Below are positions 39,674 to 47,103 of a DNA stretch of 64,000 nt, in pieces. A model generated the notes under the pieces. That model did not search any database, was not told the origin of the DNA, and saw only the letters and a program-made list of their open reading frames with translations. The stretch covers positions 1 to 64,000 of the forward strand of contig NZ_QOHO01000020.1 in the NCBI RefSeq assembly GCF_003432035.1, in the 5' to 3' direction. Each line of letters begins with the position of its first letter. Positions within the stretch are counted from its first letter, which is position 1. This DNA is from Lacrimispora amygdalina. Its GTDB lineage: Bacteria; Bacillota; Clostridia; Lachnospirales; Lachnospiraceae. A program made the translations under genes and the position numbers.

Positions 39674-39768
39674 GATATTACCTCCCTAAATAAGGCTGGC
39701 TTCATTATAACGTTTTAATGGAAGGATATCAATATGGGATTAATGAGAAATGATCTCGGTAAATGTTC

Positions 39769-39797
39769 TTGCTTTTTTCTTGCTCCTGTGATATTAT
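39769..39797 (+). promoter_or_regulatory. promoter of small RNA copy A
   Basis: TTGCTT (39769-39774), 17-nt spacer, TATTAT (39792-39797). The predicted start is A39804, the same base (AGTTAG) as in copy B. Confidence 0.7.
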
Positions 39798-39803
39798 AAA
39801 TAC

Positions 39804-39941
39804 AGTTAGCAGCAACTAACTACATGTGAATATTCTATACATCAGACTAACCCTCTGAGATTATCCTTCATTGACCCGTGAGGGATCATGACTCCTACAA
39901 AAAACCCGCCCCTGTAACCGCATGACAGGGACGGGCTTTTT
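39804..39941 (+). ncRNA. candidate small regulatory RNA, copy A
   Basis: About 138 nt with its own promoter and terminator and no downstream gene in the same direction. Hairpin 1 is AGTTAG/CTAACT (39804-39821). Hairpin 2 is TCAGA-CTAACCC-TCTGA (39842-39858). Hairpin 3 is ATCCTTCA/TGAGGGAT with loop TTGACCCG (39863-39886). The unpaired CATGACTCCTAC follows (39887-39898), then terminator CCCGCCCCTGT/ACAGGGACGGG with loop AACCGCATG. The core is nearly identical to copy B, while hairpin 1 and terminator stems differ in bases but keep pairing. I do not recognise a named family. C-rich loops and an anti-Shine-Dalgarno stretch suggest a trans-acting RNA. Confidence 0.72.
39905..39941. terminator. 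bidirectional terminator shared by small RNA A and the GH31 gene
   Basis: CCCGCCCCTGT (39905-39915) pairs with ACAGGGACGGG (39925-39935). T5 follows on the plus strand and T6 on the minus strand, so it also ends the GH31 transcript read from the other side. Confidence 0.85.
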
Positions 39942-39948
39942 GGTATTG

Positions 39949-42450
39949 TTACATACCGATCATATCAAACTGCTGGAATGAAATCACAAGCCTGCAGTTT
40001 TTCTTAGGATTCGGATATTTAATCTGAACAGATTTCAGTGTCTGGCTGTAATACCAGCCGCAGTCTGCCGCCTCAAATTTTTTACGATACAGAAAATGAG
40101 GAAATTCTTTGCCGTCTAAAGTAATCCAGAACGGTGCTTTATCTCTTCGGATCACATCTAAATAAATGTTTTCAACAGACGTCTGATAGCTGCCCTCCTG
40201 ATTAAATTCCACAACAGTCTGTTCACCTGCAGTCATTTCAATTTTAGTCTTTAAATAATCTCCGTTTTGGTAATTTAAAGTAGTTCCGTCATCTTCATAG
40301 AGAGTGAAGGAATTGTTTTTGCCAGCAGCCAGGAGCAGATGGATACCGGTGACAGATTCGGTAGTTAAGTTGTTCATCTGGTTCGCAGCCATAGGTATAA
40401 TGGCACCTTCCCGTACAAAGAGCGGGATACTTGCCATTGTTACAGGGAACTCAAGAGTTTGTCCTCCCTCGTATTTCTCTCTTGTATAATAATCATAGAA
40501 AGTCTCGCCTTCCGGAAGGTAGACTTTTCTTGTAAGAGCGCCTTTTTCCACTACATTTGCTACCAGCAGAGAATCCCCGATCATGAAATCGATTCCCTCT
40601 TCATAACAGGCGGGGTCATTCTGGAATGCGCTGCACATAGGCTCCATGATGGGGAGTCCAGTCTCATGGGCACGCTCCATAAGAGAGTAGAGGTAAGGAA
40701 TCAGTCTGTAACGGAACTTGATGGCATCCCGGATGTATCCGGTGTGGTTTCCATACATCCAGGGCTCCGTTACCGTATTATCTGTATTTACGGAGTGAAC
40801 TGAAAACCTTGGCTGGAAAATGCCGTTCTGTATCCAGCGGACCATCAGCTCTGCTTCCGGTGATGTACCATAAAAGCCGCCTATATCACAGCCCTGGTTT
40901 GCCACGCCGCTTAAACTCATGCCCAATATGGTTGCAATGTTATATTTTAACGAATCCCAGCAGGTTAAGTTATCTCCGGCCCAGGTCTGTGCGTAGCGCT
41001 GAATGCCGCTGTGTCCGGACCGGCATACGATAAATGGTCTGGTATTGTCAAAAGTCTCATGAATGGCTTCATCGGTGATCTGACACATGATATTGGACAT
41101 TACTGACTTTAACTGGCCAATGGTTCCGCCTTTGCCTTCAAAATCACAGCGGCAGTCTTTGTCCACCATACTGTCATATTCACAGTTATCGTTCCACACA
41201 GAGCACGTTCCCATTTCCAGAACATGTTCCTTTAACAGTTCCTTCCATACACTGCGGGTTACAGGTTTGGTGAAATCGGCGAAAACTCCCTTGCCGCCCC
41301 ACCAGGTACCGATACCGGGCTCGTCGCTCTGGCTGTCTTTTACAAAGATATCTTTTTCTTTCATCTGTAGAAGATTGGGATGAGACAGAAGAATTCCGGG
41401 TTTTACGTTTGGAGATACGGTAATTCCTCTTTTTTTCATCTGTGCGAAAAAGTCTCTGGGATTTTTAAAACGTTTTTCATTCCAGGTAAATACACAGCGT
41501 TTTACACCCTGCTCAGTGTCCTGGGAGGTGTAACCGGAGGATAGCTGAAAACCATCTACCGGGATATCTTCTTCTTTTGTTGTATCGATGAATTCTGTGA
41601 TTGCATCGTCACAATCTGCCTCCAGTTCCGGATAGTACATGGAGGAACCCAGGTATCCAAGCGCATACCGGGGAAGCATGGCGGATTTACCGGTAAGATC
41701 TGTATACCGGGAAACAACTTCCCGAATGGAAGGACCGGCAATGAGGAATAAATCGATATCTCCGCCGTCGGTACGATACCGGCTGTGCGGCTTCCAGTAA
41801 TTACTCTTCTCTCTGCCCATATCAAAATCGCATTCATACGTATTATGATAGAAATATCCCACTGCCTTTTTTGAACTGCGGTTTAATTTAATATAAAACG
41901 GAATGTGCTTATACAGGGAATCTGTCTCTTTCGGATTATAACCCATGGCATCCTTGGGGCTCATGGATAAGAATTTCTGGGCCTTATTCCATTGTCCGCT
42001 CTTCTCACCAAATCCGTAGAAGCAGTCTTCCGGTGAAATCTCGCTGGTGTGAATCCTGCGATGGTTGCTGTCCTCCAAATATCCAAGATCAACAATATCA
42101 GAATGGAGAGAAGTGCCTTCTTTATCGTAAACGCAGATGCGGAACGGGTCCTTCTCGATAACAACCTTTAACTGGGAGCCGCTTAGAACTGCCTGGTCTT
42201 TTGTCTGGCTGAGACTTGCAGCGGCTGGGGTCACTCGTTTTCTCTGGTTTTTAAGCACTCCGTCCATGCGGTCCTCCCATGCAGTCATGACCAGACTGTA
42301 GGATTCTTCCGCAAAATCGCCGTCAAATCCTGCGCGGATTCTTAAAATGGATTCTGTTAAAAACTGTACCCGGATTTCGATGGAATTGGTAATAATCTGA
42401 AAATAACCATCCATCTCTTTTACTTCATTCACGTTTGTACATAGCTTCAT
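39949..42450 (-). CDS. GH31 glycosidase, second subgroup (alpha-glucosidase-like)
   Basis: 833 residues, cytoplasmic (no signal peptide). The nucleophile is D421 in TCSVWNDNCEY, a WNDNxE variant distinct from the WWCDSTEP of the other GH31 here. The acid/base is expected in WAGDNLTCWDS. N-terminal sandwich with FYGFGEKSG and a C-terminal domain with PLFVREGAIIPM are typical. Exact specificity (alpha-glucosidase, transglucosidase or other) is not readable. It is divergent from an esterase, and both promoters share the same activator box. Confidence 0.88.
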   Translation of the reverse strand: MKLCTNVNEVKEMDGYFQIITNSIEIRVQFLTESILRIRAGFDGDFAEESYSLVMTAWEDRMDGVLKNQRKRVTPAAASLSQTKDQAVLSGSQLKVVIEKDPFRICVYDKEGTSLHSDIVDLGYLEDSNHRRIHTSEISPEDCFYGFGEKSGQWNKAQKFLSMSPKDAMGYNPKETDSLYKHIPFYIKLNRSSKKAVGYFYHNTYECDFDMGREKSNYWKPHSRYRTDGGDIDLFLIAGPSIREVVSRYTDLTGKSAMLPRYALGYLGSSMYYPELEADCDDAITEFIDTTKEEDIPVDGFQLSSGYTSQDTEQGVKRCVFTWNEKRFKNPRDFFAQMKKRGITVSPNVKPGILLSHPNLLQMKEKDIFVKDSQSDEPGIGTWWGGKGVFADFTKPVTRSVWKELLKEHVLEMGTCSVWNDNCEYDSMVDKDCRCDFEGKGGTIGQLKSVMSNIMCQITDEAIHETFDNTRPFIVCRSGHSGIQRYAQTWAGDNLTCWDSLKYNIATILGMSLSGVANQGCDIGGFYGTSPEAELMVRWIQNGIFQPRFSVHSVNTDNTVTEPWMYGNHTGYIRDAIKFRYRLIPYLYSLMERAHETGLPIMEPMCSAFQNDPACYEEGIDFMIGDSLLVANVVEKGALTRKVYLPEGETFYDYYTREKYEGGQTLEFPVTMASIPLFVREGAIIPMAANQMNNLTTESVTGIHLLLAAGKNNSFTLYEDDGTTLNYQNGDYLKTKIEMTAGEQTVVEFNQEGSYQTSVENIYLDVIRRDKAPFWITLDGKEFPHFLYRKKFEAADCGWYYSQTLKSVQIKYPNPKKNCRLVISFQQFDMIGM

Positions 42451-42521
42451 AAGGCATATACTCCTTTACTGTAATTCTAAAACAGGTTTGTGCTTTAATC
42501 ATAAAGAAAACGGCAATCGAA

Positions 42522-42539
42522 TACTAGACTAAAATTGCA
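42522..42539 (-). promoter_or_regulatory. activator box for the GH31 promoter (site 1)
   Basis: Read on the minus strand, TGCAATTTTAGTCTAGTA is followed after exactly 18 nt by TATGAT, the -10 of the GH31 gene. It differs from site 2 in one base of 18. The -35 region is poor, as expected for activator-dependent promoters. Confidence 0.72.
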
Positions 42540-42652
42540 GACTGTCAGCCAAAACTATACATATCTTGCACTCTTTAAGAGGGAAATATGCTGGATACAG
42601 ACGAATACCAGAGAATAAAAGAGCAAAATAAGTATAGGATATATTAAAATAG

Positions 42653-42670
42653 TGCAATTTTCGTCTAGTA
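42653..42670 (+). promoter_or_regulatory. activator box for the esterase promoter (site 2)
   Basis: TGCAATTTTCGTCTAGTA overlaps a poor -35 and lies exactly 18 nt before TATAAT (42689-42694). It is in mirror orientation to site 1, so each divergent gene has its own copy in the same geometry. Confidence 0.72.
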
Positions 42671-42721
42671 CTGACAGGTAAAGACGAATATAATGAAGGA
42701 AAAAAAAGGGAGGTTTTAACC

Positions 42722-43522
42722 ATGGCCAGTATGAATTGTCATTATTATAGTTATTCCCTGGGACATACCGTGGATGTCAACGTATTTGTACCAACACCCG
42801 AGGGAAATGAGCAGATCACCAGTGAATCGGCAAAGAAAGCATTTCCTTATGAAAAAGGTCTGCCAGTCTTATATCTGCTTCATGGAGCGTTTGGAGATTA
42901 CAGCTCCTGGATGCGTTTTTCCAACATAGAGCGTTATGCCCAGAAGCATTGCTGCGTGGTAGTTATGGCGTCAGCGGAAAACAGCTTCTATCAGGATATG
43001 TACCGTGGCAGCCGTTACTTTACCTTCTTTTCAGAGGAGCTTCCTGCATTTATTAAAAGCATTTTCCCGGTTTCAAAAAGGCGGGAAGATACCTTTGTGG
43101 CAGGTCTTTCCATGGGGGGCTATGGAGCCTGGTTTTTAGGGCTGTCAAAGCCGGAGCAGTATGCAAAGGCTGCCAGTATGTCCGGTGCGCTCAATATCGC
43201 AGAAACCTTTGATGGCATCCAAAACGGATCCATTGACGGGCCATTTCCCTGGAAAAATATTTTTGAAAATCCAGAAGAACTCTCAGGAAGCAATGCAGAT
43301 CTGATGCATCTGTATGACCGCTGCGTAAAAGACGGAATCGTACCAGAGCTTTATCAGGCATGCGGAACGGAAGATTTTCTTTATGAAATGAACCTGGAAG
43401 TGAAGAAAATCATGGAAGAAAAGGGAGCCCATGTATTGTTTGAGGAAGGGCCGGGAGGCCATAACTGGGATTTCTGGGATCTTTATATCAAGAATGTTCT
43501 GCAGTGGATGCTGCCGGTTTAG
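42722..43522 (+). CDS. putative esterase (esterase D / tributyrin esterase-like)
   Basis: 266 residues, alpha/beta-hydrolase fold: LYLLHGAFGD oxyanion region, nucleophile elbow AGLSMGGYGA with S130, late acid in CGTEDFLYE and H in GPGGHNWDFW. This is the pattern of the putative-esterase family (EstA, S-formylglutathione hydrolase, feruloyl/acetyl esterases). GGGAGG precedes the ATG. There is no signal peptide. Shared control with GH31 suggests joint attack on an acylated oligosaccharide. Confidence 0.85.
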   Translation: MASMNCHYYSYSLGHTVDVNVFVPTPEGNEQITSESAKKAFPYEKGLPVLYLLHGAFGDYSSWMRFSNIERYAQKHCCVVVMASAENSFYQDMYRGSRYFTFFSEELPAFIKSIFPVSKRREDTFVAGLSMGGYGAWFLGLSKPEQYAKAASMSGALNIAETFDGIQNGSIDGPFPWKNIFENPEELSGSNADLMHLYDRCVKDGIVPELYQACGTEDFLYEMNLEVKKIMEEKGAHVLFEEGPGGHNWDFWDLYIKNVLQWMLPV

Positions 43523-43549
43523 TTGATAATTCTTTTCGAAAAAGGGGGC

Positions 43550-43578
43550 TTGTTTTTTCTGATTTCTTATGATATTAT
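43550..43578 (+). promoter_or_regulatory. promoter of small RNA copy B
   Basis: TTGTTT (43550-43555), 17-nt spacer, TATTAT (43573-43578), with predicted start A43585. The layout is identical to copy A. Confidence 0.7.
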
Positions 43579-43584
43579 TATGAC

Positions 43585-43721
43585 AGTTAGTTAATACTAA
43601 CTGCGTGTGAATATTCTAACATCAGACTAACCCTCTGATTGCATCCTTCATTTGACCCGTGAGGGATCATGACTCCTACGAAAAGGCCGTACCTGTTACC
43701 GCATGACAGTACGGCTTTTTT
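43585..43721 (+). ncRNA. candidate small regulatory RNA, copy B
   Basis: About 137 nt. Hairpin 1 is CAGTTAG-TTAATA-CTAACTG (43584-43603, the first C just before the start). Hairpin 2 TCAGA/TCTGA is 43622-43638. Hairpin 3 ATCCTTCA/TGAGGGAT is 43643-43667. The unpaired CATGACTCCTAC is 43668-43679. The terminator is GCCGTACCTGT/ACAGTACGGC with loop TACCGCATG and T6. It follows the esterase gene and precedes a methyltransferase gene by 90 bp, but its terminator and the stand-alone copy A argue against a simple riboswitch. The conserved core against variable but paired stems indicates selection on RNA structure. Confidence 0.72.
43686..43721 (+). terminator. terminator of small RNA copy B
   Basis: GCCGTACCTGT (43686-43696) pairs with ACAGTACGGC (43706-43715) with one bulged C, then T6. 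The loop TACCGCATG differs in one base from copy A. Confidence 0.85.
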
Positions 43722-43811
43722 GGTTATCCAGGCGGCCATTGACATGAGATGCGGCGGGTGCTATCATTGGGTAAATTTATGATATCTGATAAAAAAGGAG
43801 CGTGTAAAAAG

Positions 43812-45397: not shown

Positions 45398-45427
45398 TTG
45401 TATTAGTAAGTCACGACTAACTATGTT
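45398..45427 (+). promoter_or_regulatory. nikA promoter with LysR-type box
   Basis: TTGTAT (45398-45403), 18-nt spacer, TATGTT (45422-45427). Inside the spacer TTAGT-N8-ACTAA (45403-45420) fits the T-N11-A LysR box, and AACTAT-GTT-ATAGTT (45419-45433) is a second palindrome on the -10. CTGATTTG (45393) and CAAATCAG (45444-45451) form an outer repeat whose 3' arm ends at the ribosome site. Confidence 0.55.
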
Positions 45428-45462: not shown

Positions 45463-47103
45463 ATGAAAAAAAGATTATTATATACCTGCCTTGCAGGTGT
45501 TGTTTCTGCAGCTCTTTTATCCGGGTGCCAGAAACAGGGCAGTAAAGAGGCTGCAGCAACCGGCAAAGAACAGGCAAACACAGAAGCGGCAGCAACGAAA
45601 GGATCTGAGGGGACGCCAAAGGATGAGCTGGTATTTGTAAACTTCCGTGATATCAGGGATTTAAATCCTCATCTGTACGCCGGAGAGATGTATGCCCAGG
45701 AAATGCTTTACGAGACTCTGGTCACGATAACTGCTGACGGTTATGCGCCCTGCCTGGCAGAAAGCTGGAATATAAGCGAAGATGGAAAGACCTATACATT
45801 CAAAATCAGAAAGGGCGTTACCTTCTCTGATGGTGAGGTGTGTGATGCCAATGCCATTAAGGCGAATTTTGATGCGATCATTGAAAACAAGGAACGTCAT
45901 ACATGGCTGGAAATGATGAATGTGCTGGTGGGAGTATCCGCACCTGATGCAGATACATTTGTCATTGAGCTTTCACAGCCGTATTACCCCATGCTGACAG
46001 AGCTGGGAGTTACAAGACCATTTGCAATGATCTCTCCTAAGGCCATGAAAAACGGCAGTACAAAGGACGGTGTGGATGCTTATATCGGAACAGGCCCTTA
46101 TGTACTGAAGGAATCTGTTACAGATGAATATGCTGTGTTTGAGGCTAATGAAAACTACTGGGGTGAGAAACCGAAGGTGAAAAAGATAACCGTAAAGGTT
46201 ATCCCGGACAACCAGACCCGTATTCTGGCACTGGAAAAGGGTGAAATTGATTTAATCTTCGGTAAGAATATGATCGATGCTGATGCAGTGAACAAATATA
46301 AGGAAAGTGATAAGTTCTCTGTTTCCTTGTCTGATGCTACATCTACCAGACAGATTGTAATTAATACCACCAATGATATTTTAAAGGATAAGACTGTGCG
46401 TCAGGCGATTCAGCATGCCACTAACCGCCAGGCAATCTCAGACGGTATCTTTTACGGGCTGGAAAAACCCGCTGATACGCTGTATTCCAAGACAGTTCCT
46501 TACTGCAATATTGAATTGACTCCCTACGAGTTCAGCCAGGATAAGGCATCTGAGATGCTGGAAGAGAGCGGCTGGGTTATGGGAAACCAGAATGTGAGAG
46601 AAAAAGACGGAACGCCTCTTAAACTGACTCTTTTATACAACAGCGACAGTGTTACGGAAAAGACCATCGCAGAGTACCTTCAGTCTGAATATGGTAAGCT
46701 GGGAATCGGTCTGGAGATCAAAGGAGAAGAAGAACAGTCTTACCGTGACAACATGAAAGCAGGAAACTTTGACATGGTGTTTAACATCTGCTGGGGACTT
46801 CCTTATGATCCTCAGTCTTCCCTGGCTGGAATGAGACAGCGGGTATACGGGGACTACGCAGCACAGCAGGGACTTGCGGACAAGGCGGAGATTGATAAGG
46901 CAATTACGGAAATCATGGTATCTACAGATGAAGAGAAGCGCCAGGAGCTGTACCGCTTTGTGCTGACCAGGCTTCATGAGGATGCGGTATATATCCCTCT
47001 TACCTATGAGTGTAATAAGGCAATCTACAGGTCAGATTTAAAAGGTGTTGGATTTACCCAGACCCAGTATGAAGTGCCCTTTGCCCAGATGTATTTTGAA
47101 TAA
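45463..47103 (+). CDS. nikA: nickel/metallophore ABC transporter substrate-binding lipoprotein
   Basis: 546 residues. Signal peptide with lipobox LLSGC (C22), Ala-rich linker, then an SBP family 5 domain. Segments such as DLNPHLYAGEMYAQEMLYETL, IGTGPYVLKES, NENYWGEKPKVKKIT and AAQQGLADKAEIDK follow E. coli NikA closely, stronger than ordinary oligopeptide binders. NikA binds nickel as a complex with a small organic chelator such as histidine, and relatives bind opine metallophores. AGGAGG precedes the ATG. A terminator follows before nikB. Confidence 0.87.
   Translation: MKKRLLYTCLAGVVSAALLSGCQKQGSKEAAATGKEQANTEAAATKGSEGTPKDELVFVNFRDIRDLNPHLYAGEMYAQEMLYETLVTITADGYAPCLAESWNISEDGKTYTFKIRKGVTFSDGEVCDANAIKANFDAIIENKERHTWLEMMNVLVGVSAPDADTFVIELSQPYYPMLTELGVTRPFAMISPKAMKNGSTKDGVDAYIGTGPYVLKESVTDEYAVFEANENYWGEKPKVKKITVKVIPDNQTRILALEKGEIDLIFGKNMIDADAVNKYKESDKFSVSLSDATSTRQIVINTTNDILKDKTVRQAIQHATNRQAISDGIFYGLEKPADTLYSKTVPYCNIELTPYEFSQDKASEMLEESGWVMGNQNVREKDGTPLKLTLLYNSDSVTEKTIAEYLQSEYGKLGIGLEIKGEEEQSYRDNMKAGNFDMVFNICWGLPYDPQSSLAGMRQRVYGDYAAQQGLADKAEIDKAITEIMVSTDEEKRQELYRFVLTRLHEDAVYIPLTYECNKAIYRSDLKGVGFTQTQYEVPFAQMYFE

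Follow-up and report, generated by a model that had tools for sequence, protein, structure and literature searches.

What are the two similar transcription units that bracket a GH31/esterase locus in Lacrimispora amygdalina, and what controls them? They lie in a 64,000-nucleotide stretch of the genome (contig NZ_QOHO01000020.1, positions 1 to 64,000; the window hereafter), on the plus strand, and are called copy A and copy B. A first-pass annotation of the sequence had taken them for a paralogous pair of trans-acting regulatory RNAs, perhaps of carbohydrate genes. Our analysis indicated that A and B are real, independent, terminator-ended RNA genes. They are probably paralogous genes of a single trans-acting small regulatory RNA (sRNA) that is induced by iron starvation.

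Both units have the same order of elements: promoter, 5' dyad, UGUGAAUAUUCU, a weak hairpin 2, a strong hairpin 3, CAUGACUCCUAC, and terminator (Table 1). From the sequence, transcription is predicted to start near 39804 in A and near 43585 in B, at sigma-70-type promoters with 17-nt spacing, and both terminators have the loop (A/T)ACCGCATG and a T run. The promoter layout, three hairpins, identical 12-nt segment and terminator loop described in the first-pass annotation were all recovered when A and B were read, aligned and folded, and none of 200 dinucleotide shuffles was as stable as A (z -4.5) or as B (z -5.4). The 12-nt segment (CATGACTCCTAC, identical at 39887-39898 and 43668-43679) had been described as unpaired. 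This held for GACUCCUAC, which was unpaired in every fold of A and B, and not for the leading bases: in A, CAUG was paired with a 5' CAUG at minimum energy, though not in the centroid fold, and in B, CA was paired.

Table 1. Positions of the elements of RNA copies A and B in the window, with the evidence for each.
Feature	Position	Strand	Evidence
Promoter, copy A: -35 TTGCTT (39769-39774), 17-nt spacer, -10 TATTAT (39792-39797)	39769-39797	+	Sequence; similar layout in homologues
Operator, copy A: AGTTAG-CAGCAA-CTAACT at +1 (hairpin 1 of the first-pass annotation); predicted iron-regulon dyad	39804-39821	+	Genome site counts; spacer control; invariant arms
Small RNA, copy A, about 138 nt	39804-39941	+	Covariance model match in own genome, 143 bits (model includes the copy A sequence); fold z -4.5
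Hairpin 3, copy A, loop UGACCC, covarying stem	39863-39886	+	Fold; both-side changes in 6 of 6 tested pairs
Anti-Shine-Dalgarno segment CAUGACUCCUAC, copy A, mostly unpaired	39887-39898	+	ACTCCT invariant in 46 of 46 rows; pairing test on G321 counterparts
Intrinsic terminator, copy A, loop ACCGCAUG, T run	39899-39941	+	Sequence; fold; covarying stem
Promoter, copy B: -35 TTGTTT (43550-43555), 17-nt spacer, -10 TATTAT (43573-43578)	43550-43578	+	Sequence
Operator, copy B: AGTTAG-TTAATA-CTAACT at +1	43585-43602	+	Genome site counts; spacer control
Small RNA, copy B, about 137 nt	43585-43721	+	Covariance model match in own genome, 139 bits (model includes the copy B sequence); fold z -5.4
Hairpin 3, copy B	43643-43667	+	Fold; covariation
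Anti-Shine-Dalgarno segment CAUGACUCCUAC, copy B, mostly unpaired	43668-43679	+	Fold; A/B alignment; invariance across rows
Intrinsic terminator, copy B, loop UACCGCAUG	43680-43721	+	Sequence; fold; covariation

Relatives of the two RNAs, whose existence the first-pass annotation had left to be checked, were found in other genomes. BLAST against 397 genomes from the same family identified 11 RNA genes in 9 genomes, that is, in eight besides L. amygdalina itself, with matches of any kind in 20 genomes. A covariance model found the same 9 genomes positive, and at the order level 6 of 392, all six in the same family; because the filters were strict, the counts of 9 and 6 are lower bounds. Within L. 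amygdalina there were exactly two copies, A and B, by BLAST (E 0.001) and by the covariance model (E 1). A scan of a public genome collection for the pattern of the 5' element gave 123 matches in 116 stretches: 55 RNA homologues (54 by rule and one, L077, by reading), which partly overlap the 11-gene BLAST set, 46 enolase leaders and 22 others, including two upstream of feoA and three upstream of a ZIP transporter gene (families confirmed: FeoA in L076 and L110, ZIP in L059). The labels of the records that carry the RNA include Lacrimispora, Hungatella, Clostridium sp. and uncultured Lachnospiraceae, mostly the first three genus names. Four metagenome-assembled genomes labelled Paenibacillaceae (L052, L099, L103, L138) have RNA copies identical or nearly so to those of Lacrimispora, and these labels are probably wrong. 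In Hungatella effluvii (L023, L061) the dyad and the core of the RNA gene are separated by an insertion of roughly 90 bp with repeated hairpin-like units. Some strains have three RNA copies (G637; HBUAS56010, L134 with L081 by record names), as perhaps does L. algidixylanolytica (L077 with L115), whose records may be from different strains; in the three-copy strains one copy lies at an enolase/PPTase block, while the genome of the window has A and B alone.

No gathering-level match to Rfam 15 was found in the window, and a relaxed search of 39700-43800 gave only four chance-level matches (E 1.4 to 9.9). Nine more loci were searched, of which six have the RNA, and the sole Rfam match was a T-box elsewhere in L145. 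A known Rfam family was thus rejected as the identity of A and B, for want of a match at the gathering cut-off, in agreement with the first-pass annotation, which had recognised no named RNA family. A conserved small protein inside the RNA was also rejected, since the copies have no ATG-started open reading frame (ORF) in common, the longest has 25 codons, and 18 of the 55 have none. The proposal of paralogous, free-standing, trans-acting-type RNAs, outside Rfam and with homologues elsewhere, is supported, and we regard free-standing, trans-acting function as very likely.

Covariation was examined in 46 distinct rows of 57, after removal of L061 (with its insertion), one truncated copy from L037 and identical duplicates. 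Changes on both sides were found at 12 of the 18 tested pairs, and 93.9% of cells were paired. None of 500 shuffles was as good on any of five covariation measures, and slid versions of the structure fell short too. All of the covariation was in hairpin 3 (six of six tested pairs) and in the terminator stem (six of six). The first-pass annotation had stated that the stems of hairpin 1 and the terminator change sequence while they keep pairing, and for the terminator, as for hairpin 3, the compensatory changes bear this out. Hairpin 1 does not behave in this way: its arms, AGTTAG and CTAACT, are identical in A and B and the loop alone differs, and across the 46 rows five of the six pairs never vary, the sixth varies on one side only, and none varies on both. 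The 46 rows were picked by a pattern that requires these arms; the arms were present in all 11 of the RNA genes found by BLAST, in which they were not required. RNA-level covariation of hairpin 1 was rejected because the arms are invariant, and hairpin 1 is better read as a DNA operator than as a covarying RNA helix. Outside the stems, ACTCCT was invariant in 46 of 46 rows and the terminator loop CCGCA was nearly so.

The distribution of the dyad within genomes indicates what kind of operator it would be. The exact sequence AGTTAGN6CTAACT has four sites in the L. amygdalina genome (G000) and the reversed control has none: the four are copy A, copy B and two at the feoA-feoB operon, one over its -10 region and one just behind it. 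The core GTTAG-Nn-CTAAC, with n from 3 to 9, was then counted in three genomes. Spacer 6 accounted for 14 of 19 sites in L. amygdalina, 25 of 30 in another genome of the genus (G321), and 13 of 14 in G046; in other words, there were 52 dyads at spacer 6 versus 11 (5, 5 and 1) over the six other spacers. At spacer 6 there were 25 dyads versus 3 for the reversed control in G321, and 13 versus 6 in G046.

All 14 of the spacer-6 sites in L. amygdalina were at or upstream of an ORF start, with the site at L156 overlapping the most upstream start of a short ORF. Genes of iron type behind the dyad were feoA and those for a ZIP transporter, a ferric-reductase-like protein, SufC, Fe/Mn superoxide dismutase (SOD) and DUF3793-flavodoxin, and one dyad was about 280 nt from a gene for a DtxR-family regulator. 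Further sites preceded an HD-domain gene after feoB, a class I aldolase gene, a glyoxalase-like gene and two methyltransferase genes, one of them followed by a nickel/peptide-type binding protein; two of the 14 were the RNA genes A and B. Thirteen of the 25 sites in G321 preceded iron-type or regulator genes and two more were RNA genes: six lay before siderophore-type binding proteins and one before an AraC-binding-protein fusion, and others before SOD, a ferric-reductase-like gene (28.1 bits, cut-off 28), DUF3793, sufC (by eye) and two DtxR-family genes. Five of the 13 sites in G046 preceded ahpC, DUF3793, feoB, FecCD and ZIP genes, one was an RNA gene, and three preceded ABC-transporter genes (two by eye). 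Among the proteins encoded behind the dyad in relatives were five Peripla_BP_2 (siderophore-type) binding proteins. By sequence, the RNA promoters look like targets of an iron-uptake repressor: they have the dyad of the feo, siderophore-type, suf, SOD, flavodoxin and dtxR-family promoters. Its gene content marks the dyad set as an iron regulon, and A and B are, judged from sequence, very probably members of it.

A number of observations weigh against this assignment. Over all spacers the reversed control was commoner than the dyad (52, 44 and 47 versus 19, 30 and 14 sites in G000, G321 and G046), and with one mismatch allowed there were 39 dyad sites versus 131 for the reversed pattern, so one-mismatch sites were not counted as evidence; the argument for an operator is made from the concentration of sites at spacer 6 and from their location. 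Three of the G321 sites (L185, L208, L209) are inside long ORFs and look like chance; another (L201) overlaps an 83-residue ORF, and one in G046 (L212) overlaps a 150-residue ORF. Several sites have no obvious iron role behind them: L150, L155, L158 and the gene after feoB in L. amygdalina, L179, L181, L187, L189, L196, L200 and L203 in G321, and L176, L186, L190 and L212 in G046. A second dyad, [AG]TTAGN6CTAA[CT], which counts in favour of an operator, starts 25-26 bp upstream of the first in 22 of the 57 RNA promoters, over the -10 region; it counts against the reading that the copies in the window and their Lacrimispora-type relatives have only the first.

The invariance of hairpin 1 could instead reflect selection on an RNA structure, such as a protective hairpin at the 5' end, with its likeness to the promoter dyads incidental. 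The hairpin would form in the RNA according to the fold, and the 5' element GTTAGN6CTAACTN2-3RTGTGAA is common to the RNA genes and the enolase leaders. However, the arms are constant and the loop sequence is free to vary, iron genes are preceded by this dyad at an identical spacing, and the upstream dyad of the 22 promoters is outside the transcript, all of which make this explanation very improbable beside that of an operator.

Two groups of genes near these sites were noted in passing. Just upstream of a gene for a NikA/CntA-like metal-binding lipoprotein (45463-47103), which lies behind copy B, there is a one-mismatch dyad (45406-45421); the lipoprotein may belong to this regulon as a metallophore importer, although one-mismatch dyads are no commoner than the control. 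DUF3793 genes were found behind the iron dyad or beside the RNA in five loci (L157, L182, L199, L030, L031; in L030 and L031 by eye), with a flavodoxin beside them in four, confirmed by Pfam in L157 only. This suggests a role for the unnamed DUF3793 family in iron-starved metabolism.

The position of A and B around GH31 and esterase genes could be explained if they were cis-acting leaders or attenuators of the adjoining genes (GH31, esterase, or methyltransferase/LysR). A methyltransferase ORF does follow copy B on the same strand, A and B bracket GH31 and esterase in G321 as well as in the window, and in L116 and L130 GH31 and esterase again precede copy B (by eye). However, each RNA ends in a terminator, and copy A points toward the end of the GH31 gene on the opposite strand. 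Moreover, the 24 homologues examined were in several unrelated neighbourhoods, each common to close relatives (mostly by eye): enolase/PPTase/cyclopropane synthase, DUF3793-flavodoxin, spore-germination-type genes, a TrmL-type methylase and others, with enolase and a cyclopropane synthase confirmed by family search. Only two of the 24 (L116 and L130) kept the GH31/esterase arrangement, and no downstream gene was obligatory across the set. In Clostridium sp. HBUAS56010 (L081) two RNA copies form a tandem whose interval, of 207 nt, contains no ORF of 70 codons. That the RNAs are leaders of these genes is accordingly the least probable of the explanations considered, and the first-pass annotation was right that A is not a simple leader: A and B have the sequence features of independent units, with their own terminators and no tie to a neighbouring gene.

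Given the unrelated neighbourhoods and the gene-free tandem, the link to GH31 and esterase looks incidental and these genes look like passengers. A link with GH31 or other carbohydrate genes was rejected on the basis of the homologues found elsewhere, and the carbohydrate role suggested in the first-pass annotation found no support, in view of those neighbourhoods, the L081 tandem and the predicted iron-regulon operator at the promoter. In a tree of 34 Lacrimispora-type rows, an A-type group had 15 rows (support 92/92) and a B-type group 14 (85/84), so support was moderate. The upstream copy of L081 grouped with the A type, and the downstream copy, B-like by eye, was unplaced; L134 and L077, the copies at the enolase/PPTase block, formed a third group (97/96). 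The A/B pair is probably older than its present flanks.

How would such an RNA act? What the sequence shows is the RNA genes with their conservation and covariation, and the operator with its iron regulon; we infer the binding protein, iron as the signal, action by base-pairing, and the identity of the target mRNAs. In iron-replete cells the GTTAG-N6-CTAAC dyad at the transcription start would be occupied by a repressor carrying iron, most probably a DtxR-family protein, and transcription would be blocked. When iron is low, the repressor would leave, and an RNA of about 137 nt would be made, ending at its own terminator. The mostly unpaired CAUGACUCCUAC, perhaps with the help of C-rich loops, would then pair with the Shine-Dalgarno regions of target mRNAs and stop their translation, which would probably spare iron.

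The RNA promoters are presumably under DtxR-family control, to judge by the dyad. The half-sites GTTAG and CTAAC almost touch in the classical box of DtxR and of IdeR, which is itself of the DtxR family; the dyad described here has the same half-sites as that consensus, but a 6-bp spacer. Four DtxR-family proteins are present. A dyad lies about 280-300 nt upstream of the C132 gene (L156) and likewise of the G321 gene that by eye appears to correspond to it (L197), and the C132 protein is therefore the first candidate for the repressor. A second DtxR-family gene of G321, which adjoins feoB (L201), has a dyad 103 nt upstream. There are grounds for caution on both the protein and the metal: the NCBIfam models nearest to the C132 protein are those of MntR, far below their cut-offs, and the metal could be manganese; the protein that binds the dyad could be any of the four DtxR-family proteins or another repressor.

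Pairing was tested on 1083 predicted ORF starts from about 1.17 Mb of G321, against 20 composition-shuffled versions of each segment in which dinucleotides were not kept. The anti-Shine-Dalgarno segments of G321 paired with the start regions better than nearly all shuffles, 1 of 20 being as good for A and 0-1 of 20 for B. The 5' UGUGAAUAUUC segment (copy A of G321) paired no better than shuffles, 3-6 of 20 being as good, and so found no support as a pairing region. The affinity of the C-rich segment for start regions agrees with translational repression at Shine-Dalgarno sites, and we slightly favour pairing of this kind as the main mode of action.

The same tests gave results that count against this mode or against its proposed targets. 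The better binding of a C-rich segment to Shine-Dalgarno sequences is partly trivial. Proteins with Fe-S motifs (21 of the 1083 ORFs, by a crude rule that misses nrdG itself) were not enriched among the anti-Shine-Dalgarno targets of G321: none was in the top 5%, and the rank test gave p 0.54 for A and 0.40 for B. For the 5' segment, 4 of 14 ferredoxin-like proteins were in the top 5% (0.7 expected), with p 0.33 in the rank test of the whole set. The strongest Fe-S candidate, the nrdG start region (recognised by eye), was compared with a background of 400 start regions, all from G321. It was in the top 5% in four of nine genomes (G321, G033, G132, G046), weaker in G361 and G172 (57 and 66 of 400 as good), and unremarkable in L. 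amygdalina (168 and 181 of 400), G253 and G149, and nrdG-like paralogues in G000 and G321 also paired poorly (393 and 331 of 400). With good pairing in four of nine genomes, and not in that of the window, nrdG was not borne out as a conserved target. An iron-sparing output, which we infer from regulon membership and by analogy, is nevertheless somewhat better than an even bet.

Alternatively, the RNAs may be under iron control and act by binding a protein, as a decoy or chaperone-type RNA, and not by pairing with mRNAs. Of the near-invariant sequence outside the hairpins, the 5' UGUGAAUAUUCUAUACAU is the longest run, and its pairing was no better than that of shuffles (copy A of G321); the near-invariant terminator loop would fit a protein contact too. 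The anti-Shine-Dalgarno segment tells against this: ACUCCU is fully invariant in the 46 rows, its affinity for start regions exceeds that of nearly all shuffles, and C-rich unpaired regions are the working part of the sRNAs FsrA and IsrR (PMC9410917). Action by protein binding is therefore unlikely, and base-pairing is preferred.

The enolase leaders returned by the pattern scan are the most surprising lead. In Mediterraneibacter-type and other Lachnospiraceae, enolase genes are preceded by leaders (46, among them L038, L045, L046, L067 and L147) that combine the iron dyad with RTGTGAA and a second hairpin; in many of them, by eye, ACTCCTTT is placed opposite AAAGGA close to the start codon. 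RNAalifold gave 10 pairs for 25 aligned leaders, three of them with both-side changes, and Rfam had no match in the two leader loci searched (L038, L147). The 5' element and often a TCATG...CTCC segment (36 of the 57 RNA rows, 33 of the 46 enolase leaders) are common to both, and in four genomes (L026, L028, L029, L134) the RNA is downstream of eno, a few genes away and on the same strand. The sRNA could have been born from the leader of an iron-regulated enolase gene: once copied, the promoter and leader would have gained hairpin 3 and a terminator, giving a trans-acting RNA that is mobile and duplicated. If so, eno leaders perhaps still release a related short RNA. Against such an origin, of the three of these genomes in which DNA upstream of eno was examined, G033 alone has a dyad there, and it has no TGTGAA adjoining; the exact dyad nearest to eno in G046 is 2.4 kb upstream of it, in front of ahpC, and none occurs in the 713 nt examined in G361. 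We consider this origin conceivable, though the odds are clearly against it.

RyhB and PrrF1-PrrF2 are controlled by Fur. Iron-sparing sRNAs are known in enterobacteria, pseudomonads, bacilli, staphylococci and mycobacteria (PMC9410917). RyhB and PrrF spare iron, and PrrF is likewise a paralogue pair, but these RNAs are Gram-negative and Hfq-dependent (PMC9410917), and A and B have no Rfam match. FsrA of Bacillus subtilis is repressed by iron and binds Shine-Dalgarno sequences through a C-rich motif; unlike A and B, which match no Rfam family, it is Fur-controlled and assisted by FbpABC (PMC9410917). IsrR of Staphylococcus is iron-repressed, with three stem-loops plus a terminator, C-rich unpaired regions and two operator boxes (PMC9410917); its boxes are Fur boxes, whereas the RNAs described here have one or two dyads of another type, and the sequences were not directly compared. 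MrsI of Mycobacterium tuberculosis is free-standing, about 100 nt long and iron-sparing; it has a predicted terminator, and IdeR has a binding site close to where it starts (PMC11188477). It differs from A and B, whose sequences were not directly compared with it, in that the latter have a dyad with a 6-bp spacer, a Lachnospiraceae host and a duplicated gene.

No iron-sparing sRNA of Lachnospiraceae or clostridia was found in the open literature, which mostly leaves out subscription papers. The main text of an iron study of the Fur system in C. difficile does not refer to sRNA, non-coding RNA or DtxR, and has small RNA only in a reference (PMC6311696). The main text of a large survey of structured RNAs in microbiomes names no enolase, iron, Clostridium, Hungatella or Lachnoclostridium, and its motif files may hold the family (PMC8040213). 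The RNA family is conserved and, within the searches made here, unnamed; it would be another member of a known functional class, with its lineage and its operator both new to that class.

These data from the Lachnospiraceae, a large family of the gut, provide a covarying RNA family with 46 aligned rows and a model (R1), together with a dyad from which, by sequence alone, an iron regulon can be traced in three genomes. If A and B are the iron-starvation RNAs that we propose, iron chelation should cause both of them to appear.

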